From positions 186,001-250,000 of the forward strand of contig NOKP01000036.1 in the NCBI GenBank assembly GCA_002682825.1: a stretch of DNA of 64,000 nt. Reading direction: 5' to 3'. How positions within the stretch are numbered: the stretch's first letter is position 1; each line of letters opens with the position of its first letter. Below, in pieces: positions 1-30,963 of the stretch. The notes beneath the pieces are model-generated. The model was not told the origin of the DNA, made no database searches, and saw only the letters and a list, made by a program, of their open reading frames with translations. This DNA is from Neonectria sp. B-13. Taxonomy: Eukaryota; Ascomycota; Sordariomycetes; Hypocreales; Nectriaceae. The position numbers were made by a program, and so were the translations under genes.

Positions 1-79
1 TTATATACAAAGCCATAAGATATAAGAGTTAGTATTACTAAAGTAAAATATAAAGGTTATAAAGATAAATATTAATATA

Positions 80-443
80 TTATTTAAATATAATAGTTCT
101 TAATAGTTTATACTTAGAAATATTACTATTAAAAATAATTATAATTGAATTCTTTACTTTTTAATATATTACTTTCTTAATTATAGATTAATTAATATAA
201 TATTATATATTAATTATATTACTATTAAAACTACTATTTAGATTATTATTTTTACATATTTATAATTCTATTAAATTATATATTTCTTATACTTAAGCTT
301 AATAAAAGGATAGATCTTTAGATGTTAAAACTAATTATTAACTTTTACTCCTTTTACTACTATTAGTTTATTAATACTAAGAATAATTATTAGACTTCTT
401 AAAACTCTTTTTATTAAATCTTTTTATATTTTATAATTAATAT
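80..443. repeat. Scrambled fragments of the ~1-kb R1 repeat
   Basis: Pieces of R1 sequence are recognisable but more decayed than the copies further in. Positions 85-125 resemble the R1 left end, 223-350 resemble the R1 right end read on the opposite strand, and 130-220 resemble an internal stretch. Target duplications cannot be defined. Positions 1-80 show nothing I can identify beyond AT-rich sequence. The mirror is 30521-30884. Confidence 0.5.
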
Positions 444-1463
444 TTAGATATAATAGTCCTTAGTAGTATACACCTAGAGAAGGGGCTAAAGGTTAAATAG
501 TATAAAAGAAAATAGAAAAAACAATAGTATAATAGGCTTAATACTTAAGCCTAAAGCAATAATAACTTAAGAAGATAAAAGTTTCTACTATAAAGTTAAG
601 GTATAAGTTTTACTGTCCTAATCAACTAGAAAAGCTAGATCTTAGAAAAGCTAGACCTTAGAAAGCTAGATCTTAAAAAAGGCTAAAATCCCTTAGGATA
701 AAAGCTTAGCTTATAAGATAACCTTTATACTTTCTAGGTTACTTTTTTACATTATATTCAACCTTCTATATAATATAATAACTATACTATTAATTGCATA
801 AGATAATCATTCAAATTGCATTATAGTCTAGTAAGCCCTTATTAAGTTATATATATAGGCTTTTATATAATCTATATAGTAAATTAAAAGAATATTTAAG
901 CCTTATTTCTATATTATAAATTATAGCTTAAAAGTCTAACCTAAGGTATATAAAATAGCCTATAATTAACTACTTTAGACCTAAAGAGTTAATCTAATTA
1001 GTAATCTTTAGCTATAATATCCTATTATAAAAGGAAATACAGTTTAATATAATAACTACTTAATAGATTGCAATAGAATAGTTCTTTCTAAAGAGGCTAG
1101 CTCTAAAGCTAGAAATAAATAATAATATTACTATTATAAAAAAGGAGTTCCTTAAGAAGCTATATAATCCTATTTATACCTTATAGATTATATAGTTAAT
1201 AAGTAATACTATACTAACTAACCTATAATCAAAGGAGTAATATATTAGAAAGTAAGAAAATCCTATGATTATCTCTAACATTAGCTATAAAGCTATATAG
1301 AGGGATTTAGTAGAAGGAGTTAGAAGCTAGAGAGGGTAAAAGTTAATAATTAGGTTTAAAATCTAAAGATCTATCCCTTTATTAAGCTTAAGCAAAGGAA
1401 ACATATGATTTAATATAATTATAGATAAGTAGAAATAGTAGTTCAAATAGTAGTTTTAATAGT
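444..1463 (+). mobile_element. R1 element, copy a (about 1 kb)
   Basis: This is a full-length copy of the R1 family, read from TTAGATATAATAGTCC to a decayed version of TTTCAACAGTG. Near 615-680 it holds short internal repeats built around GCTAGATCTTAGAAAA. It has no open frame, and the original coding content, if any, is not recognisable. Flanking sequences are similar but not identical, so the duplication is unclear for this copy. The family boundaries come from copies b and c. Confidence 0.7.
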
Positions 1464-3053
1464 AAATATAATTATTATATTATATAGAAGTAGGGTTATG
1501 AAATTAATTAGTACTTTTTCTACTAATTAATACTAATTGAAATTAATTAGTAAAATACTAATTAAATACTAAAAGCTTTAGTATTAGTATAGACTAATAC
1601 TACTTAATTTGAAATTAGTATTTAATTAGTATTTAGTATTTTAAATTAGTATTAGTATTAGTATAAAGTAGTATTAATTAAATACTAATTAATTAGTATT
1701 TTAGTATTAAATTAGTATTAAGATATATTTAAAGTAAAATAATATTTATTTAATAAATAAATACAATATAATATTAAAATAATATTATAAGATTAATTTA
1801 AAGATTTAATATAAAATAGTAATATAGTTAGTAAATAGATTCTTTAAAAGACTAATTATTAAATATAGCTTTTTAAGGTATTAGTTATTAATTAGAATCT
1901 TCTAAGAGATTAATTACTAATTAGAACCTTTGAAAAATAAGATTAATAATTAGTTATTATTAATATTAGGATTAGAATTACTAATTAGAATATTCAAGAA
2001 ATAAGATTAATAATGAATTATTATTAATACTAAGACTAAATTACTAATTAAAACCTTATAGAAATAGGATTAATAATTAGCTATTATTAATATTAGGATT
2101 AGAATTACTAAATAGAACCTTCTAGAAAGAAGATTAATAATTAACTATTATTAATACCAAGACTAAATTACTAATTAGAACCTTCTAGAAATTAGATTAA
2201 TAATTAATACCTTTAGTTTTATAACTATATAATATATTCTTTATTTCCCCTTTAGCTATTATCCTTTTGGTATTATTTAATCTATTCTATCTATATTATC
2301 TTATTATTGCTATCCTATTAAAATCTATCTTTTTCTTCTCTATGGATTTATTTGATGAATTTAATCCTCTTTCTGAGTCTAAGGCTGAGACTAATCCCTT
2401 TTTAGAAGAAGCTAGCCAATTAGCTTACTATGAAATAGATAGTCTCAATCAATTAGGTCTTAACTCAGAAATAGCTTCCTTTTCTTTATAAGCTATTCTA
2501 GAGGATATAAGCTCTAGAGCTTATATCTTTAAATATAGCTTATTTAAAAGGACTTTATTACCTTCTAAGGAAGGTAATAAGCTAGAAATGGAGGTTAGCT
2601 GTATAATATAAGTTCTTTCTTTTAATAATCTTATTTTAACCTTATTTAATAAGCTACTAATTATACTAGGTGTAATTATAAGAAGATTGTAAAGGTTTAA
2701 GGATTTTAATCTTCTAACTTTCAAAAACACTATGAGGCTAAGCATTTACAAATTGCTTATAATAAAAGGTCTAAATCAATTAGAAAAAGAAGTAAGTTAC
2801 CTTATTATTTCCTTTTTAACTAATAAGCTAATTTAAATTAGAAGAAGACTTTATAAAGCTATCTAGTCCCTTTGGCCTTAATATTAGGAATAAGAGGTCT
2901 AGGTAGGACTTACCTAGCTATTCTAATAGCTTTAAGGAAGAAGAAGCTTTAAAGAAGATTCTTTATTTTCTTATTGAAAATAACCTATCTTTTAATGTTT
3001 TGAATTCCTATAGTTTTCAAGACCTTCTAACCTATTATAATAAGTAAGTTAAT

Positions 3054-3150
3054 TTCTATTTTCTATTTCCTATTTTCTATTTCCTATTTCCTATTTCCTA
3101 TTTCCTATTTGCTATTTCCTATTTGCTATTTCCTATTTCCTATTTCCTAT
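3054..3150. repeat. Microsatellite-like (CTATTTC)n tract
   Basis: About a dozen imperfect copies of a 7-bp unit, CTATTTC, with variants CTATTTT and CTATTTG. It lies inside an intron or decayed part of the H1 transposase. The mirror is at 27814-27910. Confidence 0.85.
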
Positions 3151-3695
3151 TAAAATATATACTAATTTAAATTAGGGCTAGCCCTCTAGTTAATAGGTGG
3201 AAGATTAAGGGTATCTTAAATAATACCTTTAATAATAGCTTATTATAGCTAAATAAGTAACTAGAGGAAAATATATTAGACTTAGGGTCTTTTTCTCTAA
3301 CATTTAATATATGGACTTTAAATACTCAAATAGCCTATTTAGGCATTATTATTATCTTCTTAGATAAAGATTTTAAGCTTATTTATAAGCTAATTAGTAA
3401 GTAAAGATTTTATTATACTAATTAATTATAATAATTTCCTATTTAGAAGTTAGCTAATCTTATTAATTTAACTAACTTCTAAATATGCTTTAATTAGCTT
3501 TCTGAAAGCTATACTAGCCTTTATATCTATAAGGAATTTATATAAGCTTTAATCCTTTATCTAGCTATTATAGTTAATTCTATATTTAGGTAAGTATTTT
3601 CTTTTAATTAATTAATTAAACTTTTAAGCTTTTAAGCTAATTATAATCTTAATAGTATTATAAGAGATAATACAGCAAATAATAATACATTTATC

Positions 3696-4376
3696 CAGGG
3701 TTGTGAAATTAGTTAGTCCGGACTAACTAAAAACAAATTTAACTAGTCTTTAGTTAGTCTAGACTAATTAGAATTAGTCTTTATTTAGTCTAGGCCTAGA
3801 CTAGGACTAACTAATCTATAACTAGTTTTTAGTTAGTCTAGGCCTGGACTAGGACTAACTAATTTACTAGTCCAGGCTGGACTAATTCTATTTAAAGTAG
3901 GATTATTCTAGATAATAAAGCTAGTTATTTAATTATTAGATAAATATATCTATCTTACTTATTAAATCTAGTTTACGTACATATTAGATCTATACATATA
4001 GCTATTTTTAATAATTAAATATATGCTATTTAAAAGTATAGATAACTTTAAAAGGCTAAATATTTACTAAGAATAATTACATAGGAATTATATTTACATC
4101 TAGATATAGGTTTTAAAATAAGCTATATTTTAATAGCTATTTTATAGCTTATTTTAGACCTTCAAGTTCTATAAACTAGTCCAGGCCTAGACTAAAACTA
4201 GAACTAGTTTTTAGTTAGTTAGTCTAGGCCTGGACTAGGACTAGGACTAGTTTCTAATTAGTTAGTCTACCTATGGACTAAAACTAGTTTCAATGGACTA
4301 AAAACTAACTAAAAACTAACTAATTTAAACTAGTCTTTAATTAGTCCAAAATGGACTAACTAATTTCACAACCCTA
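3696..4376. mobile_element. Non-autonomous hAT element M1 with 8-bp target duplication
   Basis: This 681-bp element has inverted ends CAGGGTTGTGAAATTAGT and the complement ending CACAACCCTA. It is flanked on both sides by CATTTATC (3688-3695 and 4377-4384), a perfect 8-bp target duplication as made by hAT transposases. It interrupts the H1 frame at the position matching NTFISAFKDNY in H2. The interior is AT-rich with repeated TAGTCC/GGACTA motifs near both ends and no coding potential. Confidence 0.92.
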
Positions 4377-4470
4377 CATTTATCTCTGCTTTTAAAGATA
4401 ACTATAAGCTATCTTTAAATTAGAGGTATAAATATAATATTCACTATATAGCTTATATAATTAACCTTAT

Positions 4471-6157
4471 CACTGTTGAAACTACTATTTGGACTACTGT
4501 TTCTGCTTATCTATGATTATACTAAATCATATGTTTCCTTTGCTTAAGCTTAACAGAGGGATAGATCTTTGGATTTTAAACCTAATTATTGACTTTTGCC
4601 CCCTTTAAACTCCCTCTGCCAAATCCCTCTATATAGCTTTATAGCTAATGTTAAAGATAATTATAGTAAGATTCTTTTACTTTCTAATGTATTACTTCTT
4701 TGGTTATAAGTTAATTAGTATAATATTACTTATTAGCTATATAACCTATAAAATATAGTTATTATACTTTAGACTATTAATAAACCTTTTCTTTATATTA
4801 GTAATATTATTATTCCTTTCTAGCTTTAAAGTTAGTCTTTCTAAAAAGATCTATTTTATTATAATCTATTAGACTATTATTCTATTAAGCTAGATTCTAT
4901 CTTATAGTAGGATATAATAATTAAAGACTTTTAATTAGACTAATTCTTTAGCCTTAAGGTATTAATTAGTTTTAATCTTTTTTATATCTTATAGATTAAA
5001 CTTTTAAACTATAATTTATAGCTTAGAAATAAAGCTTAAATCTACTTAAAATAGGTTATATAAGTTATATAAGAGCCAATAGGTATAGCTTAGTAAGAGC
5101 TTACTAGGCTATAGTATAATTTAAAAGGTAGTTATTTTATATAATTAGTTATATAGTTATTATATTATATAGAAGGTTGGATAGAATGTAAAGAGCCTAG
5201 AAAGTATAGAAGTTATCTTAAAGACTAAGCTTTTATCCTAAGGGATTTTAGCCTTTTCTAAGATCTAGCTTTCTAAGGTCTAGCTTTTCTAAGATCTAGC
5301 TTTCTAAGGTCTAGCTTTTCTAAGATCTAGCTTTTCTAGCTGATTAAGGCAGTAAAACTTATACCTTAACTTTATAATAGGAACTTTTATCTTCTTAAGT
5401 TATTATTGCCTTAGGCTTAAGTATTAAGCTTATTATACTATTGTTTTTTCTATTTTCATTTATACTATTTAATCTTTAGCCCCTTCTCTAGGTATATACT
5501 ATTAATAGGGTTATGAAATTAGTTAGTACTTTTTAGTTAGTAATTAGTAACTAACTAAAATCACTTACTAATTACTAACTAATTACTAAAACTTTTAGTA
5601 ATAGTTAGGCCTATTACTAACTAATTTGATTTTAGTAATTAGTTAATAATTTAATAACTAAAGACCTAATAATATTATATTTATAGTCTTAAAAGATATA
5701 TATATTATTAATTAGATATTAATAGAAAGTAATAGAATCTTATTCTTAATAAGATAAAAATAAAGATAATTTATAATAAAGTAAAAAAGAGCTATAAAAT
5801 CTTATTATAAAGAATACTAAGCTAAGTATTATTAAATAGAGCTAATAAAAGCTATTAAATATTAAAATTAATACTATTAAAATAAGTACTATTAATAAGA
5901 GAGTAATAGAGAGCTATAGAATGTTAATATTAGTAAAATATATTATAAAGCTTATATATATATCTTATTATAATTACTAAATTAAGTACTAATTACTAAA
6001 ACTTTAATTAGTAATTTTACTAACTAATTACTAAAAGTTTTAGTTAATTACTAACTAATTACTAAAGTGAATTAGTTAGTAATAGTTAGAGTAGTTACTA
6101 ACTAATTACTAACTAACCAAAATCACAACCCTAACTACTAAGAACTATTATATCTAA
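4471..6157 (-). mobile_element. R1 element, copy b, with a nested hAT element
   Basis: The copy is inserted in the reverse direction, starting CACTGTTGAAAC and ending TATTATATCTAA. The host sequence ATAATTAACCTTAT is present on both sides (4457-4470 and 6158-6171), a perfect 14-bp duplication. It splits the H1 transposase in the conserved region just before the AQDILK-like motif. Its own sequence is split by element M2 at 5506-6133; without M2 it would be about 1.06 kb. There are no terminal inverted repeats, and the duplication is too long for hAT, Tc1 or LTR elements. Confidence 0.88.
5506..6133. mobile_element. Non-autonomous hAT element M2 nested in R1 copy b
   Basis: This 628-bp element has ends TAGGGTTATGAAATTAGT and AAAATCACAACCCTA. 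The 8-bp duplication is ACTATTAA on the left (5498-5505) and ACTACTAA on the right (6134-6141); the single difference is a C-to-T change. Both end regions closely match the two ends of transposon B, so M2 looks like an internally deleted derivative of B. The middle has decayed repeats of about 60 bp and no open frame. Confidence 0.88.
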
Positions 6158-7369
6158 ATAATTAACCTTATAGTGTAAGATATCTTAAAGGAATTCCTTT
6201 TATCAAAGGAATTAGAAATAGTATTATCTGATTAAAATAATACTATTTTACAAAAAATTCTTAGCTCTTTATCTAGTAAGTCTACTAATATCCTTAATTA
6301 TAAGCTTATTCTAATTTAATATAGGTCTTATTACTTAGATTTAAAGAATAGCTATTTTAACTAAGTATATAACTGAGGTTAAGCAGCTATTAGAAGAAGG
6401 AATAAAACGGTTTCAAAGGGAAAATAGCCTTCTTATTAAGAAGAAAAGGATCTCTCTAGGTATGTATATTTTTAACCTTATTTTAACCTTAATTTAACCT
6501 TAATTTAAAAGCTAACTATTTAAATAGATAATTTAATCCGCTGGAATTTAACATTTAAAATGATTGAATCTTGCCTTGAATTAAAAGACCCTTTAGGCTA
6601 TGTCTATAAGAATACATCTAATACAGATTTTGAAGAGGTAATTAGATAATTTCTTATCTCTTTTTCCTTATAATAATATTAATATTGAAATATAGGTCTT
6701 TTTAGGAGATATTAACTGGGATTTCCTAGTTGAAGTTAAAAGACTATTTAAGGTCTTTGTAAAACCTTCAATTAGGCTATAAGGGCAATTTTATACTATT
6801 ATGCTAGAAGTAGGGTTAGGAAATTAGTTAGTACTTTTTAGTTAGTAATTAGTAACTAACTAAAATCACTTACTAATTACTAACTAATTACTAAAACTTT
6901 TAGTAATAGTTAGAGCTATTACTAACTAATTATTAAAACTTTTAGTAATAGTTAGAGCTATTACTAACTAATTTGATTTTAGTAATTAGTTAGTAATTTA
7001 GTGACTAAAGGTTTAATAAGATTATATTATATAATGTATATTATTAATTAGAAAGTAATAGAAAGCTATAGAATCTTATTATTAATAATACTAAGATAAA
7101 TATTATTATTTAAAAAGTAATAGAAAGCTATAGAATATTAATATTACTAATACTAAGATAGGTATTATTAATTAGAAGGTAATAGAAAGCTATAGAATAA
7201 TAATATTACTAATACTAAAATAGGTATTATTAATTAGAAGGTAATAATAAGCTATAGAATTATAATATTACTAATACTAAGATAACTATTATTAATTAGA
7301 AAGTAATAAAAAGCTATAGAAATTTACTATTAATTATAAGAAGTCTTAAATCTATCTTAAGATATATAT

Positions 7370-8376
7370 TTAAATAGAATAGTCCTTAGTAGTATATACT
7401 TAGAAAAGGGGCTAAAGGTTAAATAGTATAAAAGAAAATAGAAAAAACAATAGTATAATAGGCTTAATACTTAAGCCTAAAGCAATAATAACTTAAGAAG
7501 ATAAAAGTTTCTATTATAAAGCTAAGGTATAAGTTTTACTGCCCTAATCAGCTAGAAAAGCTAAATCTTAGAAAAGCTAGATCTTAGAAAAGCTAGATCT
7601 TAGAAAAGGCTAAAACCCCTTAGGATAAAAGCCTAGCTAACCTTTATACTTTTTAAGCCTTTTATATTCTATTTAACCTTCTATATAATATAATAATTAT
7701 ACTATTAATTATATAAGATAACTACTATCTAAATTATATTATAGCCTAATAAGCCCTTACTAAGCTATATATATAAGCTCTTATATAACCTATATAGTAA
7801 ATTAAAAAAATATCTAAGCCTTATTTCTATATAATAAATTATAGCTTAAAAGTCTAGCCTAAGGCATATAAAATAGCCTATAATCAACTACTTTAGACCT
7901 AAGAAATTTATCTAATTAATAGTCTTTAGTTATAATATTCTACTATAAGGAATATAGCTTAATATAATAATAGTCTAATAGATTATAATAAAATAGCTCT
8001 TTCTAGAGAAGCTAGCTCTAAAGCTAGAAAGGAATAGTAATATTACTATTATAGAGAAAGAGTTCCTTAAGAAACTATATAACTCTATCTATACCTTATG
8101 GATTATACAGTTAATAGATAATATTATTCTAACTAACCTATAGCTAAAGGAGTAATACATTAGAAACCAAGGGAATCCTATAGTTATCTCTAATATTGGC
8201 TATAAAGTATGGAGGGATTTGGCAGAAGGAGTTAGAAGCTAGAAGGGGTAAAGGTTAATAATTAGGTTTAAAATCTAAAGATCTATTCCCCTATTAAGCT
8301 TAAGCAAAGGAAACATATGATTTAATGCAATTATAGATAAGTAGAAATAGTAGTCTAAATAGTAGTTTCAATAGTG
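7370..8376 (+). mobile_element. R1 element, copy c (1007 bp) with 14-bp target duplication
   Basis: This is the cleanest uninterrupted R1 copy. It is flanked by CTTAAGATATATAT at 7356-7369 and 8377-8390, a perfect 14-bp duplication. It begins TTAAATAGAATAGTCC and ends TTTCAATAGTG. Internal short repeats (GCTAGATCTTAGAAAA) lie at about 7560-7615. No reading frame survives RIP. The long duplication and lack of inverted ends suggest a retroposon (LINE- or SINE-like), but no poly-A or reverse transcriptase is visible. Confidence 0.88.
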
Positions 8377-8501
8377 CTTAAGATATATATATTCTAGATT
8401 TCTAATTCAATTTCAAATAAGCTATTATCTATTAAGCTATCTATTAAGCTATATTTTAAGCTATCTTAGCTATCTATTTAGCTATTTATTCTTTTATAAT
8501 G

Positions 8502-11500
8502 GACTATAATAGTGATTATAATCCTATACCTTTAGTTTCAGATATTAAAACTAACCCTTTTTCAGAGTCTATTTCATCTGAATTAGAAAATGCTATTATT
8601 TTAGATAATTCTAACTTAGCTGAAAATGAATTAGACTCTAAAATAGCCTCTTCTTCTACTTTAATTAGCTAAAATAAAGATATAGATTCTAGAATTTATA
8701 TCTTTAAAAATAGCTTATTTAAGTAGACAATATTACCTAATATAGAAAGTAATAATAGGGAAATGCAAATTGAATATACAATATAAGTCTTTTTTATTTA
8801 TATTCTATTTTCTATATACTAATTAGTATTTTTAGGTATAATTATAAGAAGATTGAAAAGATTAAGGGATTTCAATCTTCTAATTATATAAGGCATTATC
8901 AATTTAAGCATTCAGAAATTGCTTATAATAAAAAGACTGAATTAACTAAGAAAAGATGTAAGTTATTAAATTAAGCCTATTATTAATTTAAAGACTAATT
9001 ATCTAATAGAAGTTGATATAAATAAGAATAAAAGCTTTTTTGATTTATCTATAAATAAAAAAGCTTAGCTTAATACATCTTTTAATGAAGAAGAAGCCCT
9101 TAAAAAGATTCTTTATTTTCTTATAGAAAATAACCTATCTTTTAATATTTTAAATTCCTATACTCTTTAAGACCTTCTAACCTATTATAATAAGTAACTA
9201 TTTTCCTATTTTAGCCTTATAAGCTTACAATATACTAACTTTAATAGGGCTAGTCCTTCTATTAATAGGTAGAAAATTAAGGGTATTTTAAAGGATACCT
9301 TTAATAATAGCTTATTATAATTTAATAAGCAATTAGAAGAGAATATCTTAGACTTAGGGTCTTTTTCCCTAACGTTTAATATATGGACTTCAAATACCTA
9401 AACAGCCTTTTTAGGCATTCTTATTATCTTTATAGATAAGAATTTTAATCTTATCTATAAGCTAATAGGTAAATAAAGACCTTATTATACTAATATTTTC
9501 CTATTTAAAGGTTAACTAATTAGCTGAATTTAACTAACTTTTAAATAGGTTTTAATCAGCTTAATGAAAGTCATATTGGCCTTTATATCTATAAGGAATT
9601 TATTAATGCTTTAATTCCTTATCCCTCAATTACAATAGATACTACATTTAGGTATATTCTTTTAAGATTCTAACTATTTAAGACATAAGCTAATAAATAA
9701 CCTTATTATTAGTATTACAAGGGATAATGCAGCAAATACTAATACCTTTATTTCTGCTTTTAAAGATAACTATATGTTATCTTTAAATAAAAGATTTAAA
9801 TATGATATTTACTGTATAGTGCATATAATTAATATTATAGCGCAAGATATCCTTAAGGAATTTATTTTAGCTAAGGAATTAGAGGTATTATTATCTAATC
9901 TAGATAATAATATCTTAAATTCCTCTAATAATGAGTTTACTAGTAAGTTATCTTAACCTTAATTTAAAGCTTAAGCTAATTAATTATCTTTAGCTCTTAT
10001 TACTCGAATTCGAAGAATTGGTGTTTTAACTAAATATACAACTGAAGTTAAACAGCTATTAGAAGAAGGAATAGCTAAATTCCAAAGGGAAAATAAGCTT
10101 CTTACTAAGAAGAAAAAGATCCCTTTAGGTAAGCTTATTCTTATTTTATTTAAAGCTAATAAGCTAATTTAATTAAATAATTCTACTAGATAGAATTCAA
10201 CATTTAATATGCTTGAATCTAGTATTAAATTAAAAGATCCCTTATCTTATATTTATAAGAATACAACTAATAAGGAATTTAAAGAAGTTAGTTATTTCCT
10301 ATTTTAATAAGCTTAAAATACTAATAGCTAAATATAGATCTTTCTATCTGATTATGAGTGGGCCTTTCTAGTTGAAATTAAAAGACTATTTAAAGTCTTT
10401 ATAAAACCTTTAACTAGATTATAGAGTCAATTTTATACTATTATGCCTAAAGGCTTATTATTTATATATCAAATTTATAATAAGCTAAAAGGTTTAAATA
10501 AGGCTTTTATTAGCTATAGTAGTAAAAAGACTCAATTGGTAAGCTTTCCCATTATATTCTTATTAGTATTTATAGTAATTTTAGCCTTAGTTAATATTAT
10601 CTAATAGATTAAAATAATACAGTAGATAACATATCGTAATTAATATAATAAGATACTATACCTAGTACTATTAATCCCAATAACTTAAATATAGTAAGCT
10701 TTCCTAGTAATATGGTTCATATTAATATTATACCTTGAGCCTATTTTTGCAATCTATCTAGGTCCTTCTCTCTAACCTTAATATCCAATTCATAAAAAGC
10801 TTATCCTAAACTATAGTATATATAAATAACCTAATTGTCTCTTATTAAGCTGATAAGTCCAGCCAGCCTTCTTTCCTCTTTCTTAATACACTATAATACA
10901 GTATAATACAACTATAATACATTCTACTTTTACTATTATCTACTATATCTTATAACCTAATAGTAAGAAATAGAGCTATAAGATATATAAAATAGAATAC
11001 TATTACTCTCTAGATAGAGAGATTAAGCCTACTAAGTATAAGTAGTAGCTTTATTAGGCTAAAATCTATAATCTTAATAACTTTAAGTCCAACTATATAA
11101 CAGTTAGTACTATCTAAATAGTATATCTAGCTATATTTAGCTACTATCTGCTCCTAAACAATAAAGGTACTAAAGTCAATAATATTAGCTTTATTAAAGA
11201 GGAAAAGGAGTTTCTCGAAAAGCTCACTAGAAGATTGGAAGCTAGGTTATACTAGGATAAAGCTATTACTAACAAATTAACTAGAGATAAATATGCCCTA
11301 TGGTTCTAGGAGCTGCTGGGGTGCGTAGAGCTAGTGCAGATGGCCAGCTAGTGCATTGTGAAATCGGGGGGAAACACAAGGATCAACAAGGGTAGGATCA
11401 TGTGCTAGGAACAGGGTTAAGGAAAAACTTAGACTGGATAGAAAAGGTAGATAGGTTCGGGTCAGATGCAAAGATTAATAAAGAACTTTAAAACCAACCA

Positions 11501-12423
11501 GGCTTAAGACAAAGAAATCAATGTGTAATACAGTAATCATTATACATTAGGTTCCCTCATAGAGGGATTCTTATTAGTATATAATTCATTAACCTTCTAA
11601 TTAGGCTCAAGCCTATTTAAAGCTCTCTCAAGATATAGAAGCTGGCTTAAATAAGCTTGAAAGATATTTCCCTTGACAGCTTACTAATAGAAATATAACT
11701 AACTATAAGCCCTATCTTTATAGTATTATTTTAGACCCTAGGTTTAAATTAATGCACTTTAAAGATAATCACTTATTAGCCTTTTATCCTTCTATTAGTC
11801 AGGATATAATTAGTCTATTTAAGGCTGATTATCAAAAGTAAGTAATTTAACCTATTTCTATTTACATTATCTATTTACTAATTACTTAATAGAATTAAGC
11901 TAGAACGAGGAGACTTTAATCAGCTAATAGGGCCTAATCTCTCTTTTGATGAATTAGGTTAAGACCCTATTTTAGAAGATAAATTATCTTCTAATGAAGG
12001 GTCTGAAAATGAATTTTATATAAGTGATATTCCTAAAGAAGAGGAATATCTGACTTATATAAATAAAGCAGTCTTACCTAAAAAGGTTAGTCTTATTTAT
12101 TCTATTAGCTATTTAACCTATTAACTAACCTTATTTAAATAGACTAAAAATACCAGAATATTAAAGAAATAACTCAATTCGATTTCCTAATTTAGCTATA
12201 TTAGCTAGATGCTATTTAGCTATTCCAGCTACTTCTACTGCTATTAAAAGCACTTTCTCAATTAGTAATAATATTATTACTAAATCGAGAAATAGGCTAT
12301 TACCTAATACAGTTAGGCAGCTTATTTTACTAAAAAGCTGGAATAAAAGCTTTAATGATTTAAAGAAGGAAGAAGAAGAAGAAAATAAGAAAGAAATAGA
12401 AAGAGAAGATTAGTTAGATTAGG
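8502..12423 (+). pseudogene. hAT transposase remnant H2 (best-preserved copy)
   Basis: The frame starts at an ATG near 8502 (MDYNSDYNPIPLVSD). In order there follow: a BED-finger-like block near 8840-8955 (ends HSEIAYNKKTELTKK); WTS-x-N and FLGI near 9385-9430; ITRDNAANT near 9715, which carries a conserved Asp; IYCIVHIINIIAQDIL near 9800-9855, the C-x2-H motif; a WNSTFNML-like motif near 10195; and the C-terminal dimerisation domain (TKSRNRLLPNTVRQLILLKSW) near 12275-12345. These are established hAT landmarks. Introns with GTAAG donors appear near 8955, 10130 and 10540. Many stops make it dead. Confidence 0.85.
11296..11560. repeat. GC-richer island inside H2, possibly LTR-derived
   Basis: About 265 bp of nearly normal base composition lies in otherwise 75-80% AT sequence, in the foreign insert within H2. 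A TG...CA segment (TGTGAAATCG to ATTATACA) could be a solo LTR, but I found no target duplication. A 14-bp direct repeat, ATTCTTATTAGTAT, occurs near both ends of the larger insert (about 10553 and 11568). The origin is unresolved. Confidence 0.45.
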
Positions 12424-12732
12424 CTTCTAAAATATATTTTTATATCTTATTAAATTAAGTCTTTTTGAATTTTCTATATAGCTTTTACTAAGAATTAGAT
12501 TAAGATCTTATTTTATTTAAGTAATCTATTTTTATAAGTAAATAAATAAAGAATAAAGTTTTAATTATATACTATTATAATTACTAAATTAATTACTAAT
12601 TACTAAAAGTTTTAGTTAATTACTAACTAATTACTAAAGTAAATTAGTTAGTAATAGTTAGAGCAGTTACTAACTAATTACTAACTAACTAAAATCACAA
12701 CCCTATATATAATGATAAATACTAATAGTACC

Positions 12733-13235: not shown

Positions 13236-13243
13236 ATTATAAT

Positions 13244-14411: not shown

Positions 14412-14489
14412 ATTATAATACTTAGTCTTTAATACTAATATAAAGGTAAAAATAGAAAATATTATTCTTACTAATGAAATTACTAATCT

Positions 14490-15332: not shown

Positions 15333-15432
15333 NNNNNNNNNNNNNNNNNNNNNNNNNNNNNNNNNNNNNNNNNNNNNNNNNNNNNNNNNNNNNNNNNNNN
15401 NNNNNNNNNNNNNNNNNNNNNNNNNNNNNNNN
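15333..15432. other. Assembly gap of 100 N
   Basis: Exactly 100 N, the usual placeholder for a gap of unknown size between scaffolded contigs. It lies at the centre of the giant inverted repeat and removes the left part of the central hAT element. Confidence 0.99.
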
Positions 15433-15630: not shown

Positions 15631-15631
15631 G

Positions 15632-16474: not shown

Positions 16475-16552
16475 AGATTAGTAATTTCATTAGTAAGAAT
16501 AATATTTTCTATTTTTACCTTTATATTAGTATTAAAGACTAAGTATTATAAT

Positions 16553-17720: not shown

Positions 17721-18540
17721 ATTATAATTCAATATTTAACCTTATTTTAGTTATCTATTTTTAATAGCTATTTATTACTTCTTTTATAATATTATAAATT
17801 AAGTAATTACCTTAAAGTAGAAATAAAGATCTTAAAATTAGTAAGCTTAATAAGATAGATAATAAATATTAGGGATAGTATTTATATTTCTTTTCATATA
17901 TCCTATCTTAATATTATACCTCATTTTAGTTATCTATTTTTACTAAGCTTTTATTTACTATTTTAGAATATAGTAAATTAAGTAATTATCTTAATATAGA
18001 AATAGAGTTCTTAAAATTAGTAAGCTTAATAAGGTAAATAGTAAATATTAAGGATAGTATTTATACTTCTTTTTATATATTATATTTTAATATTAAACCC
18101 TATTTTAGTTATCTATTTTTATTAAGCTATTATAACCTATTTTATAATATAGTAAATTTAGTAATTATCTTAAAGTAGAAATAGAGATCTTAAAACTATT
18201 AAGCTAAATAAGATAGGTAATAAATATAGAAGGTACTATTAGTATTTATCATTATATATAGGGTTGTGATTTTAGTTAGTTAGTAATTAGTTAGTAACTG
18301 CTCTAACTATTACTAACTAATTTACTTTAGTAATTAGTTAGTAATTAACTAAAACTTTTAGTAATTAGTAATTAATTTAGTAATTATAATAGTATATAAT
18401 TAAAACTTTATTCTTTATTTATTTACTTATAAAAATAGATTACTTAAATAAAATAAGATCTTAATCTAATTCTTAGTAAAAGCTATATAGAAAATTCAAA
18501 AAGACTTAATTTAATAAGATATAAAAATATATTTTAGAAG

Positions 18541-21500
18541 CCTAATCTAACTAATCTTCTCTTTCTATTTCTTTCTTATTTTCTTCTTCTTCTTCCTTCT
18601 TTAAATCATTAAAGCTTTTATTCCAGCTTTTTAGTAAAATAAGCTGCCTAACTGTATTAGGTAATAGCCTATTTCTCGATTTAGTAATAATATTATTACT
18701 AATTGAGAAAGTGCTTTTAATAGCAGTAGAAGTAGCTGGAATAGCTAAATAGCATCTAGCTAATATAGCTAAATTAGGAAATCGAATTGAGTTATTTCTT
18801 TAATATTCTGGTATTTTTAGTCTATTTAAATAAGGTTAGTTAATAGGTTAAATAGCTAATAGAATAAATAAGACTAACCTTTTTAGGTAAGACTGCTTTA
18901 TTTATATAAGTCAGATATTCCTCTTCTTTAGGAATATCACTTATATAAAATTCATTTTCAGACCCTTCATTAGAAGATAATTTATCTTCTAAAATAGGGT
19001 CTTAACCTAATTCATCAAAAGAGAGATTAGGCCCTATTAGCTGATTAAAGTCTCCTCGTTCTAGCTTAATTCTATTAAGTAATTAGTAAATAGATAATGT
19101 AAATAGAAATAGGTTAAATTACTTACTTTTGATAATCAGCCTTAAATAGACTAATTATATCCTGACTAATAGAAGGATAAAAGGCTAATAAGTGATTATC
19201 TTTAAAGTGCATTAATTTAAACCTAGGGTCTAAAATAATACTATAAAGATAGGGCTTATAGTTAGTTATATTTCTATTAGTAAGCTGTCAAGGGAAATAT
19301 CTTTCAAGCTTATTTAAGCCAGCTTCTATATCTTGAGAGAGCTTTAAATAGGCTTGAGCCTAATTAGAAGGTTAATGAATTATATACTAATAAGAATCCC
19401 TCTATGAGGGAACCTAATGTATAATGATTACTGTATTACACATTGATTTCTTTGTCTTAAGCCTGGTTGGTTTTAAAGTTCTTTATTAATCTTTGCATCT
19501 GACCCGAACCTATCTACCTTTTCTATCCAGTCTAAGTTTTTCCTTAACCCTGTTCCTAGCACATGATCCTACCCTTGTTGATCCTTGTGTTTCCCCCCGA
19601 TTTCACAATGCACTAGCTGGCCATCTGCACTAGCTCTACGCACCCCAGCAGCTCCTAGAACCATAGGGCATATTTATCTCTAGTTAATTTGTTAGTAATA
19701 GCTTTATCCTAGTATAACCTAGCTTCCAATCTTCTAGTGAGCTTTTCGAGAAACTCCTTTTCCTCTTTAATAAAGCTAATATTATTGACTTTAGTACCTT
19801 TATTGTTTAGGAGCAGATAGTAGCTAAATATAGCTAGATATACTATTTAGATAGTACTAACTGTTATATAGTTGGACTTAAAGTTATTAAGATTATAGAT
19901 TTTAGCCTAATAAAGCTACTACTTATACTTAGTAGGCTTAATCTCTCTATCTAGAGAGTAATAGTATTCTATTTTATATATCTTATAGCTCTATTTCTTA
20001 CTATTAGGTTATAAGATATAGTAGATAATAGTAAAAGTAGAATGTATTATAGTTGTATTATACTGTATTATAGTGTATTAAGAAAGAGGAAAGAAGGCTG
20101 GCTGGACTTATCAGCTTAATAAGAGACAATTAGGTTATTTATATATACTATAGTTTAGGATAAGCTTTTTATGAATTGGATATTAAGGTTAGAGAGAAGG
20201 ACCTAGATAGATTGCAAAAATAGGCTCAAGGTATAATATTAATATGAACCATATTACTAGGAAAGCTTACTATATTTAAGTTATTGGGATTAATAGTACT
20301 AGGTATAGTATCTTATTATATTAATTACGATATGTTATCTACTGTATTATTTTAATCTATTAGATAATATTAACTAAGGCTAAAATTACTATAAATACTA
20401 ATAAGAATATAATGGGAAAGCTTACCAATTGAGTCTTTTTACTACTATAGCTAATAAAAGCCTTATTTAAACCTTTTAGCTTATTATAAATTTGATATAT
20501 AAATAATAAGCCTTTAGGCATAATAGTATAAAATTGACTCTATAATCTAGTTAAAGGTTTTATAAAGACTTTAAATAGTCTTTTAATTTCAACTAGAAAG
20601 GCCCACTCATAATCAGATAGAAAGATCTATATTTAGCTATTAGTATTTTAAGCTTATTAAAATAGGAAATAACTAACTTCTTTAAATTCCTTATTAGTTG
20701 TATTCTTATAAATATAAGATAAGGGATCTTTTAATTTAATACTAGATTCAAGCATATTAAATGTTGAATTCTATCTAGTAGAATTATTTAATTAAATTAG
20801 CTTATTAGCTTTAAATAAAATAAGAATAAGCTTACCTAAAGGGATCTTTTTCTTCTTAGTAAGAAGCTTATTTTCCCTTTGGAATTTAGCTATTCCTTCT
20901 TCTAATAGCTGTTTAACTTCAGTTGTATATTTAGTTAAAACACCAATTCTTCGAATTCGAGTAATAAGAGCTAAAGATAATTAATTAGCTTAAGCTTTAA
21001 ATTAAGGTTAAGATAACTTACTAGTAAACTCATTATTAGAGGAATTTAAGATATTATTATCTAGATTAGATAATAATACCTCTAATTCCTTAGCTAAAAT
21101 AAATTCCTTAAGGATATCTTGCGCTATAATATTAATTATATGCACTATACAGTAAATATCATATTTAAATCTTTTATTTAAAGATAACATATAGTTATCT
21201 TTAAAAGCAGAAATAAAGGTATTAGTATTTGCTGCATTATCCCTTGTAATACTAATAATAAGGTTATTTATTAGCTTATGTCTTAAATAGTTAGAATCTT
21301 AAAAGAATATACCTAAATGTAGTATCTATTGTAATTGAGGGATAAGGAATTAAAGCATTAATAAATTCCTTATAGATATAAAGGCCAATATGACTTTCAT
21401 TAAGCTGATTAAAACCTATTTAAAAGTTAGTTAAATTCAGCTAATTAGTTAACCTTTAAATAGGAAAATATTAGTATAATAAGGTCTTTATTTACCTATT

Positions 21501-22462
21501 AGCTTATAGATAAGATTAAAATTCTTATCTATAAAGATAATAAGAATGCCTAAAAAGGCTGTTTAGGTATTTGAAGTCCATATATTAAACGTTAGGGAAA
21601 AAGACCCTAAGTCTAAGATATTCTCTTCTAATTGCTTATTAAATTATAATAAGCTATTATTAAAGGTATCCTTTAAAATACCCTTAATTTTCTACCTATT
21701 AATAGAAGGACTAGCCCTATTAAAGTTAGTATATTGTAAGCTTATAAGGCTAAAATAGGAAAATAGTTACTTATTATAATAGGTTAGAAGGTCTTAAAGA
21801 GTATAGGAATTTAAAATATTAAAAGATAGGTTATTTTCTATAAGAAAATAAAGAATCTTTTTAAGGGCTTCTTCTTCATTAAAAGATGTATTAAGCTAAG
21901 CTTTTTTATTTATAGATAAATCAAAAAAGCTTTTATTCTTATTTATATCAACTTCTATTAGATAATTAGTCTTTAAATTAATAATAGGCTTAATTTAATA
22001 ACTTACATCTTTTCTTAGTTAATTCAGTCTTTTTATTATAAGCAATTTCTGAATGCTTAAATTGATAATGCCTTATATAATTAGAAGATTGAAATCCCTT
22101 AATCTTTTCAATCTTCTTATAATTATACCTAAAAATACTAATTAGTATATAGAAAATAGAATATAAATAAAAAAGACTTATATTGTATATTCAATTTGCA
22201 TTTCCCTATTATTACTTTCTATATTAGGTAATATTGTCTACTTAAATAAGCTATTTTTAAAGATATAAATTCTAGAATCTATATCTTTATTTTAGCTAAT
22301 TAAAGTAGAAGAAGAGGCTATTTTAGAGTCTAATTCATTTTCAGCTAAGTTAGAATTATCTAAAATAATAGCATTTTCTAATTCAGATGAAATAGACTCT
22401 GAAAAAGGGTTAGTTTTAATATCTGAAACTAAAGGTATAGGATTATAATCACTATTATAGTC
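18541..22462 (-). pseudogene. Mirror copy of hAT transposase remnant H2
   Basis: Identical on the minus strand to 8502-12423, including the C-x2-H stretch at 21008-21190 and the dimerisation domain near 18620-18690. It has the same stops and introns, so it is not an independent copy with its own mutations. Confidence 0.85.
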
Positions 22463-22587
22463 CATTATAAAAGAATAAATAGCTAAATAGATAGCTAAGA
22501 TAGCTTAAAATATAGCTTAATAGATAGCTTAATAGATAATAGCTTATTTGAAATTGAATTAGAAATCTAGAATATATATATCTTAAG

Positions 22588-23594
22588 CACTATTGAAACT
22601 ACTATTTAGACTACTATTTCTACTTATCTATAATTGCATTAAATCATATGTTTCCTTTGCTTAAGCTTAATAGGGGAATAGATCTTTAGATTTTAAACCT
22701 AATTATTAACCTTTACCCCTTCTAGCTTCTAACTCCTTCTGCCAAATCCCTCCATACTTTATAGCCAATATTAGAGATAACTATAGGATTCCCTTGGTTT
22801 CTAATGTATTACTCCTTTAGCTATAGGTTAGTTAGAATAATATTATCTATTAACTGTATAATCCATAAGGTATAGATAGAGTTATATAGTTTCTTAAGGA
22901 ACTCTTTCTCTATAATAGTAATATTACTATTCCTTTCTAGCTTTAGAGCTAGCTTCTCTAGAAAGAGCTATTTTATTATAATCTATTAGACTATTATTAT
23001 ATTAAGCTATATTCCTTATAGTAGAATATTATAACTAAAGACTATTAATTAGATAAATTTCTTAGGTCTAAAGTAGTTGATTATAGGCTATTTTATATGC
23101 CTTAGGCTAGACTTTTAAGCTATAATTTATTATATAGAAATAAGGCTTAGATATTTTTTTAATTTACTATATAGGTTATATAAGAGCTTATATATATAGC
23201 TTAGTAAGGGCTTATTAGGCTATAATATAATTTAGATAGTAGTTATCTTATATAATTAATAGTATAATTATTATATTATATAGAAGGTTAAATAGAATAT
23301 AAAAGGCTTAAAAAGTATAAAGGTTAGCTAGGCTTTTATCCTAAGGGGTTTTAGCCTTTTCTAAGATCTAGCTTTTCTAAGATCTAGCTTTTCTAAGATT
23401 TAGCTTTTCTAGCTGATTAGGGCAGTAAAACTTATACCTTAGCTTTATAATAGAAACTTTTATCTTCTTAAGTTATTATTGCTTTAGGCTTAAGTATTAA
23501 GCCTATTATACTATTGTTTTTTCTATTTTCTTTTATACTATTTAACCTTTAGCCCCTTTTCTAAGTATATACTACTAAGGACTATTCTATTTAA
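22588..23594 (-). mobile_element. Mirror copy of R1 copy c
   Basis: Reverse complement of 7370-8376, with the 14-bp duplications at 22574-22587 and 23595-23608. Confidence 0.87.
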
Positions 23595-24806
23595 ATATAT
23601 ATCTTAAGATAGATTTAAGACTTCTTATAATTAATAGTAAATTTCTATAGCTTTTTATTACTTTCTAATTAATAATAGTTATCTTAGTATTAGTAATATT
23701 ATAATTCTATAGCTTATTATTACCTTCTAATTAATAATACCTATTTTAGTATTAGTAATATTATTATTCTATAGCTTTCTATTACCTTCTAATTAATAAT
23801 ACCTATCTTAGTATTAGTAATATTAATATTCTATAGCTTTCTATTACTTTTTAAATAATAATATTTATCTTAGTATTATTAATAATAAGATTCTATAGCT
23901 TTCTATTACTTTCTAATTAATAATATACATTATATAATATAATCTTATTAAACCTTTAGTCACTAAATTACTAACTAATTACTAAAATCAAATTAGTTAG
24001 TAATAGCTCTAACTATTACTAAAAGTTTTAATAATTAGTTAGTAATAGCTCTAACTATTACTAAAAGTTTTAGTAATTAGTTAGTAATTAGTAAGTGATT
24101 TTAGTTAGTTACTAATTACTAACTAAAAAGTACTAACTAATTTCCTAACCCTACTTCTAGCATAATAGTATAAAATTGCCCTTATAGCCTAATTGAAGGT
24201 TTTACAAAGACCTTAAATAGTCTTTTAACTTCAACTAGGAAATCCCAGTTAATATCTCCTAAAAAGACCTATATTTCAATATTAATATTATTATAAGGAA
24301 AAAGAGATAAGAAATTATCTAATTACCTCTTCAAAATCTGTATTAGATGTATTCTTATAGACATAGCCTAAAGGGTCTTTTAATTCAAGGCAAGATTCAA
24401 TCATTTTAAATGTTAAATTCCAGCGGATTAAATTATCTATTTAAATAGTTAGCTTTTAAATTAAGGTTAAATTAAGGTTAAAATAAGGTTAAAAATATAC
24501 ATACCTAGAGAGATCCTTTTCTTCTTAATAAGAAGGCTATTTTCCCTTTGAAACCGTTTTATTCCTTCTTCTAATAGCTGCTTAACCTCAGTTATATACT
24601 TAGTTAAAATAGCTATTCTTTAAATCTAAGTAATAAGACCTATATTAAATTAGAATAAGCTTATAATTAAGGATATTAGTAGACTTACTAGATAAAGAGC
24701 TAAGAATTTTTTGTAAAATAGTATTATTTTAATCAGATAATACTATTTCTAATTCCTTTGATAAAAGGAATTCCTTTAAGATATCTTACACTATAAGGTT
24801 AATTAT

Positions 24807-26493
24807 TTAGATATAATAGTTCTTAGTAGTTAGGGTTGTGATTTTGGTTAGTTAGTAATTAGTTAGTAACTACTCTAACTATTACTAACTAATTCACTTT
24901 AGTAATTAGTTAGTAATTAACTAAAACTTTTAGTAATTAGTTAGTAAAATTACTAATTAAAGTTTTAGTAATTAGTACTTAATTTAGTAATTATAATAAG
25001 ATATATATATAAGCTTTATAATATATTTTACTAATATTAACATTCTATAGCTCTCTATTACTCTCTTATTAATAGTACTTATTTTAATAGTATTAATTTT
25101 AATATTTAATAGCTTTTATTAGCTCTATTTAATAATACTTAGCTTAGTATTCTTTATAATAAGATTTTATAGCTCTTTTTTACTTTATTATAAATTATCT
25201 TTATTTTTATCTTATTAAGAATAAGATTCTATTACTTTCTATTAATATCTAATTAATAATATATATATCTTTTAAGACTATAAATATAATATTATTAGGT
25301 CTTTAGTTATTAAATTATTAACTAATTACTAAAATCAAATTAGTTAGTAATAGGCCTAACTATTACTAAAAGTTTTAGTAATTAGTTAGTAATTAGTAAG
25401 TGATTTTAGTTAGTTACTAATTACTAACTAAAAAGTACTAACTAATTTCATAACCCTATTAATAGTATATACCTAGAGAAGGGGCTAAAGATTAAATAGT
25501 ATAAATGAAAATAGAAAAAACAATAGTATAATAAGCTTAATACTTAAGCCTAAGGCAATAATAACTTAAGAAGATAAAAGTTCCTATTATAAAGTTAAGG
25601 TATAAGTTTTACTGCCTTAATCAGCTAGAAAAGCTAGATCTTAGAAAAGCTAGACCTTAGAAAGCTAGATCTTAGAAAAGCTAGACCTTAGAAAGCTAGA
25701 TCTTAGAAAAGGCTAAAATCCCTTAGGATAAAAGCTTAGTCTTTAAGATAACTTCTATACTTTCTAGGCTCTTTACATTCTATCCAACCTTCTATATAAT
25801 ATAATAACTATATAACTAATTATATAAAATAACTACCTTTTAAATTATACTATAGCCTAGTAAGCTCTTACTAAGCTATACCTATTGGCTCTTATATAAC
25901 TTATATAACCTATTTTAAGTAGATTTAAGCTTTATTTCTAAGCTATAAATTATAGTTTAAAAGTTTAATCTATAAGATATAAAAAAGATTAAAACTAATT
26001 AATACCTTAAGGCTAAAGAATTAGTCTAATTAAAAGTCTTTAATTATTATATCCTACTATAAGATAGAATCTAGCTTAATAGAATAATAGTCTAATAGAT
26101 TATAATAAAATAGATCTTTTTAGAAAGACTAACTTTAAAGCTAGAAAGGAATAATAATATTACTAATATAAAGAAAAGGTTTATTAATAGTCTAAAGTAT
26201 AATAACTATATTTTATAGGTTATATAGCTAATAAGTAATATTATACTAATTAACTTATAACCAAAGAAGTAATACATTAGAAAGTAAAAGAATCTTACTA
26301 TAATTATCTTTAACATTAGCTATAAAGCTATATAGAGGGATTTGGCAGAGGGAGTTTAAAGGGGGCAAAAGTCAATAATTAGGTTTAAAATCCAAAGATC
26401 TATCCCTCTGTTAAGCTTAAGCAAAGGAAACATATGATTTAGTATAATCATAGATAAGCAGAAACAGTAGTCCAAATAGTAGTTTCAACAGTG
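24807..26493 (+). mobile_element. Mirror copy of R1 copy b with nested M2
   Basis: Reverse complement of 4471-6157. The nested hAT element M2 is at 24831-25458. The 14-bp duplications are at 24793-24806 and 26494-26507. Confidence 0.86.
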
Positions 26494-26587
26494 ATAAGGT
26501 TAATTATATAAGCTATATAGTGAATATTATATTTATACCTCTAATTTAAAGATAGCTTATAGTTATCTTTAAAAGCAGAGATAAATG

Positions 26588-27268
26588 TAGGGTTGTGAAA
26601 TTAGTTAGTCCATTTTGGACTAATTAAAGACTAGTTTAAATTAGTTAGTTTTTAGTTAGTTTTTAGTCCATTGAAACTAGTTTTAGTCCATAGGTAGACT
26701 AACTAATTAGAAACTAGTCCTAGTCCTAGTCCAGGCCTAGACTAACTAACTAAAAACTAGTTCTAGTTTTAGTCTAGGCCTGGACTAGTTTATAGAACTT
26801 GAAGGTCTAAAATAAGCTATAAAATAGCTATTAAAATATAGCTTATTTTAAAACCTATATCTAGATGTAAATATAATTCCTATGTAATTATTCTTAGTAA
26901 ATATTTAGCCTTTTAAAGTTATCTATACTTTTAAATAGCATATATTTAATTATTAAAAATAGCTATATGTATAGATCTAATATGTACGTAAACTAGATTT
27001 AATAAGTAAGATAGATATATTTATCTAATAATTAAATAACTAGCTTTATTATCTAGAATAATCCTACTTTAAATAGAATTAGTCCAGCCTGGACTAGTAA
27101 ATTAGTTAGTCCTAGTCCAGGCCTAGACTAACTAAAAACTAGTTATAGATTAGTTAGTCCTAGTCTAGGCCTAGACTAAATAAAGACTAATTCTAATTAG
27201 TCTAGACTAACTAAAGACTAGTTAAATTTGTTTTTAGTTAGTCCGGACTAACTAATTTCACAACCCTG
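26588..27268. mobile_element. Mirror copy of hAT element M1
   Basis: Reverse complement of 3696-4376, with 8-bp duplications at 26580-26587 and 27269-27276. Confidence 0.9.
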
Positions 27269-29500
27269 GATAAATGTATTATTATTTGCTGTATTATCTC
27301 TTATAATACTATTAAGATTATAATTAGCTTAAAAGCTTAAAAGTTTAATTAATTAATTAAAAGAAAATACTTACCTAAATATAGAATTAACTATAATAGC
27401 TAGATAAAGGATTAAAGCTTATATAAATTCCTTATAGATATAAAGGCTAGTATAGCTTTCAGAAAGCTAATTAAAGCATATTTAGAAGTTAGTTAAATTA
27501 ATAAGATTAGCTAACTTCTAAATAGGAAATTATTATAATTAATTAGTATAATAAAATCTTTACTTACTAATTAGCTTATAAATAAGCTTAAAATCTTTAT
27601 CTAAGAAGATAATAATAATGCCTAAATAGGCTATTTGAGTATTTAAAGTCCATATATTAAATGTTAGAGAAAAAGACCCTAAGTCTAATATATTTTCCTC
27701 TAGTTACTTATTTAGCTATAATAAGCTATTATTAAAGGTATTATTTAAGATACCCTTAATCTTCCACCTATTAACTAGAGGGCTAGCCCTAATTTAAATT
27801 AGTATATATTTTAATAGGAAATAGGAAATAGGAAATAGCAAATAGGAAATAGCAAATAGGAAATAGGAAATAGGAAATAGGAAATAGAAAATAGGAAATA
27901 GAAAATAGAAATTAACTTACTTATTATAATAGGTTAGAAGGTCTTGAAAACTATAGGAATTCAAAACATTAAAAGATAGGTTATTTTCAATAAGAAAATA
28001 AAGAATCTTCTTTAAAGCTTCTTCTTCCTTAAAGCTATTAGAATAGCTAGGTAAGTCCTACCTAGACCTCTTATTCCTAATATTAAGGCCAAAGGGACTA
28101 GATAGCTTTATAAAGTCTTCTTCTAATTTAAATTAGCTTATTAGTTAAAAAGGAAATAATAAGGTAACTTACTTCTTTTTCTAATTGATTTAGACCTTTT
28201 ATTATAAGCAATTTGTAAATGCTTAGCCTCATAGTGTTTTTGAAAGTTAGAAGATTAAAATCCTTAAACCTTTACAATCTTCTTATAATTACACCTAGTA
28301 TAATTAGTAGCTTATTAAATAAGGTTAAAATAAGATTATTAAAAGAAAGAACTTATATTATACAGCTAACCTCCATTTCTAGCTTATTACCTTCCTTAGA
28401 AGGTAATAAAGTCCTTTTAAATAAGCTATATTTAAAGATATAAGCTCTAGAGCTTATATCCTCTAGAATAGCTTATAAAGAAAAGGAAGCTATTTCTGAG
28501 TTAAGACCTAATTGATTGAGACTATCTATTTCATAGTAAGCTAATTGGCTAGCTTCTTCTAAAAAGGGATTAGTCTCAGCCTTAGACTCAGAAAGAGGAT
28601 TAAATTCATCAAATAAATCCATAGAGAAGAAAAAGATAGATTTTAATAGGATAGCAATAATAAGATAATATAGATAGAATAGATTAAATAATACCAAAAG
28701 GATAATAGCTAAAGGGGAAATAAAGAATATATTATATAGTTATAAAACTAAAGGTATTAATTATTAATCTAATTTCTAGAAGGTTCTAATTAGTAATTTA
28801 GTCTTGGTATTAATAATAGTTAATTATTAATCTTCTTTCTAGAAGGTTCTATTTAGTAATTCTAATCCTAATATTAATAATAGCTAATTATTAATCCTAT
28901 TTCTATAAGGTTTTAATTAGTAATTTAGTCTTAGTATTAATAATAATTCATTATTAATCTTATTTCTTGAATATTCTAATTAGTAATTCTAATCCTAATA
29001 TTAATAATAACTAATTATTAATCTTATTTTTCAAAGGTTCTAATTAGTAATTAATCTCTTAGAAGATTCTAATTAATAACTAATACCTTAAAAAGCTATA
29101 TTTAATAATTAGTCTTTTAAAGAATCTATTTACTAACTATATTACTATTTTATATTAAATCTTTAAATTAATCTTATAATATTATTTTAATATTATATTG
29201 TATTTATTTATTAAATAAATATTATTTTACTTTAAATATATCTTAATACTAATTTAATACTAAAATACTAATTAATTAGTATTTAATTAATACTACTTTA
29301 TACTAATACTAATACTAATTTAAAATACTAAATACTAATTAAATACTAATTTCAAATTAAGTAGTATTAGTCTATACTAATACTAAAGCTTTTAGTATTT
29401 AATTAGTATTTTACTAATTAATTTCAATTAGTATTAATTAGTAGAAAAAGTACTAATTAATTTCATAACCCTACTTCTATATAATATAATAATTATATTT

Positions 29501-30520
29501 ACTATTAAAACTACTATTTGAACTACTATTTCTACTTATCTATAATTATATTAAATCATATGTTTCCTTTGCTTAAGCTTAATAAAGGGATAGATCTTTA
29601 GATTTTAAACCTAATTATTAACTTTTACCCTCTCTAGCTTCTAACTCCTTCTACTAAATCCCTCTATATAGCTTTATAGCTAATGTTAGAGATAATCATA
29701 GGATTTTCTTACTTTCTAATATATTACTCCTTTGATTATAGGTTAGTTAGTATAGTATTACTTATTAACTATATAATCTATAAGGTATAAATAGGATTAT
29801 ATAGCTTCTTAAGGAACTCCTTTTTTATAATAGTAATATTATTATTTATTTCTAGCTTTAGAGCTAGCCTCTTTAGAAAGAACTATTCTATTGCAATCTA
29901 TTAAGTAGTTATTATATTAAACTGTATTTCCTTTTATAATAGGATATTATAGCTAAAGATTACTAATTAGATTAACTCTTTAGGTCTAAAGTAGTTAATT
30001 ATAGGCTATTTTATATACCTTAGGTTAGACTTTTAAGCTATAATTTATAATATAGAAATAAGGCTTAAATATTCTTTTAATTTACTATATAGATTATATA
30101 AAAGCCTATATATATAACTTAATAAGGGCTTACTAGACTATAATGCAATTTGAATGATTATCTTATGCAATTAATAGTATAGTTATTATATTATATAGAA
30201 GGTTGAATATAATGTAAAAAAGTAACCTAGAAAGTATAAAGGTTATCTTATAAGCTAAGCTTTTATCCTAAGGGATTTTAGCCTTTTTTAAGATCTAGCT
30301 TTCTAAGGTCTAGCTTTTCTAAGATCTAGCTTTTCTAGTTGATTAGGACAGTAAAACTTATACCTTAACTTTATAGTAGAAACTTTTATCTTCTTAAGTT
30401 ATTATTGCTTTAGGCTTAAGTATTAAGCCTATTATACTATTGTTTTTTCTATTTTCTTTTATACTATTTAACCTTTAGCCCCTTCTCTAGGTGTATACTA
30501 CTAAGGACTATTATATCTAA
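29501..30520 (-). mobile_element. Mirror copy of R1 copy a
   Basis: Reverse complement of 444-1463. The decayed R1 fragments of 80-443 are mirrored at 30521-30884. Confidence 0.7.
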
Positions 30521-30963
30521 ATATTAATTATAAAATATAAAAAGATTTAATAAAAAGAGTTTTAAGAAGTCTAATAATTATTCTTAGTATTAATAAACTA
30601 ATAGTAGTAAAAGGAGTAAAAGTTAATAATTAGTTTTAACATCTAAAGATCTATCCTTTTATTAAGCTTAAGTATAAGAAATATATAATTTAATAGAATT
30701 ATAAATATGTAAAAATAATAATCTAAATAGTAGTTTTAATAGTAATATAATTAATATATAATATTATATTAATTAATCTATAATTAAGAAAGTAATATAT
30801 TAAAAAGTAAAGAATTCAATTATAATTATTTTTAATAGTAATATTTCTAAGTATAAACTATTAAGAACTATTATATTTAAATAATATATTAATATTTATC
30901 TTTATAACCTTTATATTTTACTTTAGTAATACTAACTCTTATATCTTATGGCTTTGTATATAA

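Follow-up and report, generated by a model that had tools for sequence, protein, structure and literature searches.

A giant palindrome in a Neonectria sp. B-13 contig is probably an assembly artefact

The giant palindrome at the start of the window (the window being the whole 64000-nucleotide stretch analyzed, which is C57:152964-216963 on the minus strand) is almost certainly an assembly artefact: scaffolding appears to have joined a contig to its own reverse complement, a reading to which we give, from the sequence, a probability of about 97%. As far as tested, the 402963 bases of contig C57 are a 201531-base unit and a second, reverse-complemented copy of it that lacks the 199 bases on the gap side, with 100 N between the two. 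What was seen directly is the gap, the mirroring about the middle of the contig (for the pairs compared), the constant 199, and the recurrence of the arrangement in other contigs. Most likely, the cell has a single copy of the C57 unit.

Symmetry of the window and of contig C57

When the window was compared pair by pair, positions x and 30964-x were complementary in every case (15332/15332 for x = 1-15332), and 15632-30963 is the identical string to the reverse complement of window 1-15332; this symmetry is far beyond chance. The original prediction had proposed exactly this pairing and had added that, in every stretch compared, the two copies share every mutation; both statements stand, there being 0 mismatches in the 15332 window pairs. 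It made no mention of a gap, yet a run of exactly 100 N, the sole run of N in the window, is present on the symmetry axis at 15333-15432, and 199 unpaired bases (15433-15631) follow it directly. The record is thus truly symmetrical, though about a gap that holds no sequence. Table 1 lists the features of the window and their positions in C57.

The arm had been described as 15632-30963, but position 30963 is merely the one tied to the window edge, and the arm extends through the gene-bearing remainder of the window. When window 30964-46900 was compared with C57:216964-232900 on the other strand, which is DNA lying past window base 1, pairing continued with 0 mismatches in 15937 positions. In addition, a 2001-base piece from window 36000-38000 has exactly two full-length 100% matches, which are mirrored in C57, and thus the genes belong to the arm too.

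Table 1. Features of the fold-back in the window and their positions in contig C57.
Feature	Window	C57	Remark
Shorter copy, inner part	1-15332	201632-216963, other strand	Exact reverse complement of 15632-30963
Shorter copy past window base 1		Runs to contig end, 402963	Part of stretch compared
Scaffold gap, 100 N	15333-15432		On the axis; same run at 12 other axes read
199-base tip, longer copy only	15433-15631		Same tip length at 12 other axes, sequence irrelevant
Longer copy of the duplicated contig	15632-64000	152964-201332, other strand	Continues onward towards C57:1

The window pairing sum of 30964 corresponds to a sum of 402964 in C57, where position p pairs with 402964-p; the axis is therefore the arithmetic centre of the contig, and the first base of C57 pairs with its last. 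Inspection of the sequence left of base 1, which the original prediction had suggested as a way of finding where pairing ends, showed that pairing continues there, and it was traced to the ends of C57, with 0 mismatches in the 81232 pairs compared of the 201332 expected. The outermost 9963 bases at each end are an exact mirror of each other, C57 starting with 16 C and ending with 16 G. No unique flanks or telomeres were met outside the arms, and the contig stops where the arms stop; runs of at least two TTAGGG or CCCTAA units were absent from the 282863 C57 positions searched (~70% of the contig, both ends included). C57 thus shows what marks an artefact of this kind, namely a gap on the axis, symmetry about its own centre, no mutation separating the copies in the pairs compared, and a constant with the look of software.

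A palindrome of very recent origin, or one under active gene conversion, would of course also be perfectly symmetrical, as C57 is over the 81232 pairs compared. C57 could in principle be such a true giant palindrome of the chromosome, formed by inverted duplication or as an isochromosome-like fragment, with gene conversion preserving the identity of its arms. We give this reading next to no chance of being correct. Real large palindromes resemble C57 in having two long inverted arms, but they have a sequenced junction and unique flanks, whereas the join in C57 is 100 unsequenced N, and C57 apparently contains only arms, tip, and gap (81232 of 201332 pairs, both ends included). The two ends of C57 match base for base, telomere repeats are absent from the positions examined, and two identical 201-kb arms in a chromosome would be expected, from general knowledge, to be merged by an assembler into one contig. 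Furthermore, the 100 N and the 199 bases are found again in the fold-backs of eleven other contigs.

Recurrence of the same anatomy in the assembly

The assembly surveyed comprises 60.9 Mb in 123 contigs. Fold-back axes were read in 12 of these (C57, C1, C76, C27, C38, C55, C56, C59, C81, C117, and C69, together with two axes in C105), and at each of the axes (13/13) there is a single run of N, exactly 100 long, and one side exceeds the other by exactly 199 bases; the axes of C60, C65, and C70 fall outside this count. C1 and C76 were recognized from matches in a window-based search that paired about fixed axes, and both have the 100-N gap and the 199-base tip. The C1 arm extends to the last base of its contig (1000/1000 end bases mirrored), and that of C76 to the first base of its contig (400/400).

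Contig ends were compared in two sets. The first consisted of 20 contigs, of which 12 were comparable, the other 8 being dropped as their starts read N; C27, C38, C55, C56, C59, C81, and C117 had base-exact mirrored ends, C69 was mirrored at an offset of exactly 199, and the ends of C58, C63, C94, and C105 were not mirrored, other offsets having been tried too. In the second set, 9 of 11 contigs were comparable (C110 and C35 were dropped, their starts reading N): C60 and C70 were mirrored to the base, C65 was mirrored with an offset of 199 (101/101 bases), and the ends of C39, C50, C42, C48, C52, and C34 were not mirrored. Overall, in a sample not drawn at random (C38 and C56 were included on the strength of earlier matches, and C1 and C76 were found from matches), 9 of the 21 other contigs with both ends readable had base-exact mirrored ends over the 300-400 bases compared, 2 had mirrored ends with the offset of 199 (C69 and C65), and 10 had ends that were not mirrored, although one of these 10, C105, nevertheless contains internal fold-backs. 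Outside these counts are C15 and C33, for which only the starts were read, and C122 and C98, whose starts alone were read and were N.

Some of the pieces chosen for comparison proved to be duplicated. A 1-kb piece of C56 had been intended as a single-copy control but is present in two copies that mirror each other about the C56 centre, and it was this result that opened the survey of other contigs. The C105 centre, also taken as a control, is duplicated as well, and two further axes were found from there; C69, taken as a non-mirrored contig, is in fact a fold-back with the 199 offset. Centre pieces of C58 and C94 are each single copy, and an axis at the contig centre was found in none of C58, C63, C94, and C105; the assembly is therefore not doubled throughout.

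The single-copy state of the C58 and C94 pieces also bears on a different origin for the two arms, in which a Hi-C or reference-guided scaffolder, one that writes 100 N, took two identical haplotype contigs, from a dikaryon or a diploid, and linked them tail to tail. Other scaffolders do use 100 N for gaps of unestimated size, as stated in excerpted descriptions of MEDUSA (PMC8290116) and Dovetail (PMC6423373). Nevertheless, identity over all 81232 compared pairs would hardly be expected of two haplotypes, nor would a constant 199-base trim at 13/13 axes be expected from independent contigs, and we consider a haplotype origin very unlikely.

Two contigs are irregular. C105, at 1811617 bases, has two fold-back axes, at 363958-364057 and 1269787-1269886; its start mirrors position 728208 and its end mirrors 728209, and there is an axis gap in each part. 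Its layout resembles a circle, X-gap-reverse X-gap, opened at a single point, which is a possible product of graph traversal but is hard to square with a chromosome. The position sum is 728214 at the first axis and 728209 at the outer end, a net 5-base difference between the copies, and it is 2539872 at the second axis and 2539826 further out, a net difference of 46 bases. The strict absence of mutations separating the copies, as seen in the C57 pairs compared, thus does not extend to C105. C60 has 296632 bases, its ends are mirrored (300/300), and it starts with a run of 58 G. Its length is an even number, and it consequently does not fit two identical copies plus one 100-N gap plus one 199-base tip; the C60 copies may differ in length somewhere. 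The irregularities of C105 and C60 argue against strict identity everywhere, yet they lend no support to a chromosomal palindrome.

The striking chromosomal palindrome contemplated in the original prediction is accordingly unsupported: the 100-N gap occupies the exact centre of the contig, the two contig ends mirror one another base for base, and the combination of 100 N with a 199-base unpaired tip is found at all 13 axes read, in 12 contigs. For these reasons, a true palindrome or isochromosome was rejected. The original prediction was right, though, to raise a fold-back artefact as the alternative that had to be excluded.

Tips, contig ends, and the likely origin of the joins

The 11 tips compared, from 11 contigs, vary in sequence and composition, with GC from 0.14 to 0.60; the exception is the pair from C55 and C117, whose differences are confined to the last 2 bases. 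A constant tip length combined with varying sequence is a software signature. The first 199 bases of C65 are also the same as the C55 and C117 tips save for the last 2 bases, and because these three sequences are nearly identical, several contigs break at the same repeat. The C57 tip (15433-15631) is itself a repeat, rich in short inverted repeats and containing TTAGTACAGGCCTGTACTAA twice; it has matches of 97-100% over 198-204 bases in C122, C35, C37, C52, C1, and C76, and the copy in C122 is one base from a 100-N gap. Among the contig ends of C57, C42, C60, and C27 and the gap-side ends of C1, C38, C59, and C76, several are simple sequence, consisting of C or G runs (16 in C57, 17 in C42, and 58 in C60), (TTTCCTA)n, (TTAATTAG)n, or (ATT)n. 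Ends at simple sequence are typical break points of short-read assemblies.

The program and the false link we infer as follows. One 201531-base contig would have been placed twice, in forward and reverse-complement orientation, and the two joined end to end through a 100-N placeholder, with the second copy lacking the 199 bases adjoining the gap. Such a result could be obtained if the assembler retained both strands of every graph edge, and if a scaffolding link then connected an edge with the reverse complement of that edge, for example through read pairs in a hairpin or a simple repeat at the contig end. The writer of the sequence would have trimmed the usual k-1 = 199 overlap of a k = 200 graph despite the intervening gap, leaving an edge followed by 100 N and the reversed edge, one of the two shorter than the other by k-1. 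At homopolymer, simple-repeat, or inverted-repeat-rich ends, read pairs are easily misplaced, and the false link may have come from there.

A trim of 199 implies k = 200. With their k of 200, DISCOVAR de novo and w2rap would fit the 199-base trim. The closest parallel is the two-strand graph of the DISCOVAR, w2rap, and Supernova type, in which a line joined to its own reverse complement should have the fixed k-1 offset seen here. In excerpts of the Supernova description, edges are single strands, abutting edges overlap by k-1 with k = 48, a gap spanned by read pairs appears in the output as 100 N, and the raw output gives each edge together with its reverse complement, the reverse complements being omitted in other output styles; k' = 200 is used only for joining paths (PMC5411770). 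Plain Supernova is therefore a misfit, because with a stated overlap k of 48 the trim would be 47, whereas the offset of 199 found here requires k = 200. The literature on the assembler and on such an artefact serves here as general background only, and we do not present the artefact as new to the literature.

Reads rather than scaffolding could have been at fault, if the assembler followed fold-back chimeric reads, a product of whole-genome amplification or of overlooked adapters, along the contig and back again. Trouble with palindromic reads has been described for amplified DNA, and excerpted accounts of amplification chimeras report false inverted repeats (PMC6218980, PMC13265396). Such reads should, however, give a continuous turn without N and with a variable offset, and neither a 100-N gap nor a constant 199-base tip would be expected at every axis, whereas every axis read has both. 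We therefore judge chimeric reads an unlikely cause of the palindromes, although fold-back fragments could be a source of the false link. It is also conceivable, but highly improbable, that some contig ends are genuinely hairpin-closed or palindromic in the cell, e.g., at inverted-repeat elements like the C57 tip. If so, the read pairs that linked a contig with its reverse complement would be a real physical signal and not noise; even then, the printed 400-kb palindrome would still not be real.

Arm content and consequences for the record

The arms had been described as old transposon sediment, a view that suits window 1-30000, which is AT-rich (GC 0.19-0.28), but not the ordinary genes found from about 32 kb, where GC is 0.46-0.56. 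The AT-rich block forms the inner ~16 kb of each arm (31 kb in all). Past this block, 17 long open frames are listed; ten were scanned against Pfam, and nine of the ten match families; those represented in the gene-bearing part include protein kinase, Pyr_redox_2, pectate lyase, MFS_1, AA9 with CBM_1, and Zn_clus. One protein, resembling sulfide:quinone oxidoreductase and encoded at 33832-35208 on the minus strand, shares 94% identity with a protein of Neonectria punicea, the other 119 relatives among the matches listed being at most 83% identical; this match suggests a member of the Nectriaceae, in or close to Neonectria, as the source. Both C57:110000-130000 and window 1-30000 show sharp AT-rich blocks (GC about 0.19-0.28) alternating with gene DNA of GC ~0.5. 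An alternation of AT-rich and gene-bearing DNA resembles fungal genomes with RIP-mutated repeats.

Eight contigs with mirrored ends and a matching axis would alone account for ~2.12 Mb of redundant sequence in the 60.9 Mb, a figure that assumes all eight to be mirrored throughout, the long interior comparison covering C57 only. Affected records are detectable by a simple test, namely 100 N within ~150 bases of the symmetry centre together with a 199-base tip. The palindrome is biologically unimportant and matters as quality control, in that whole contigs and their genes are present twice in the assembly; gene counts, claims of copy number, the dating of duplications, and repeat statistics taken from this record would be inflated.
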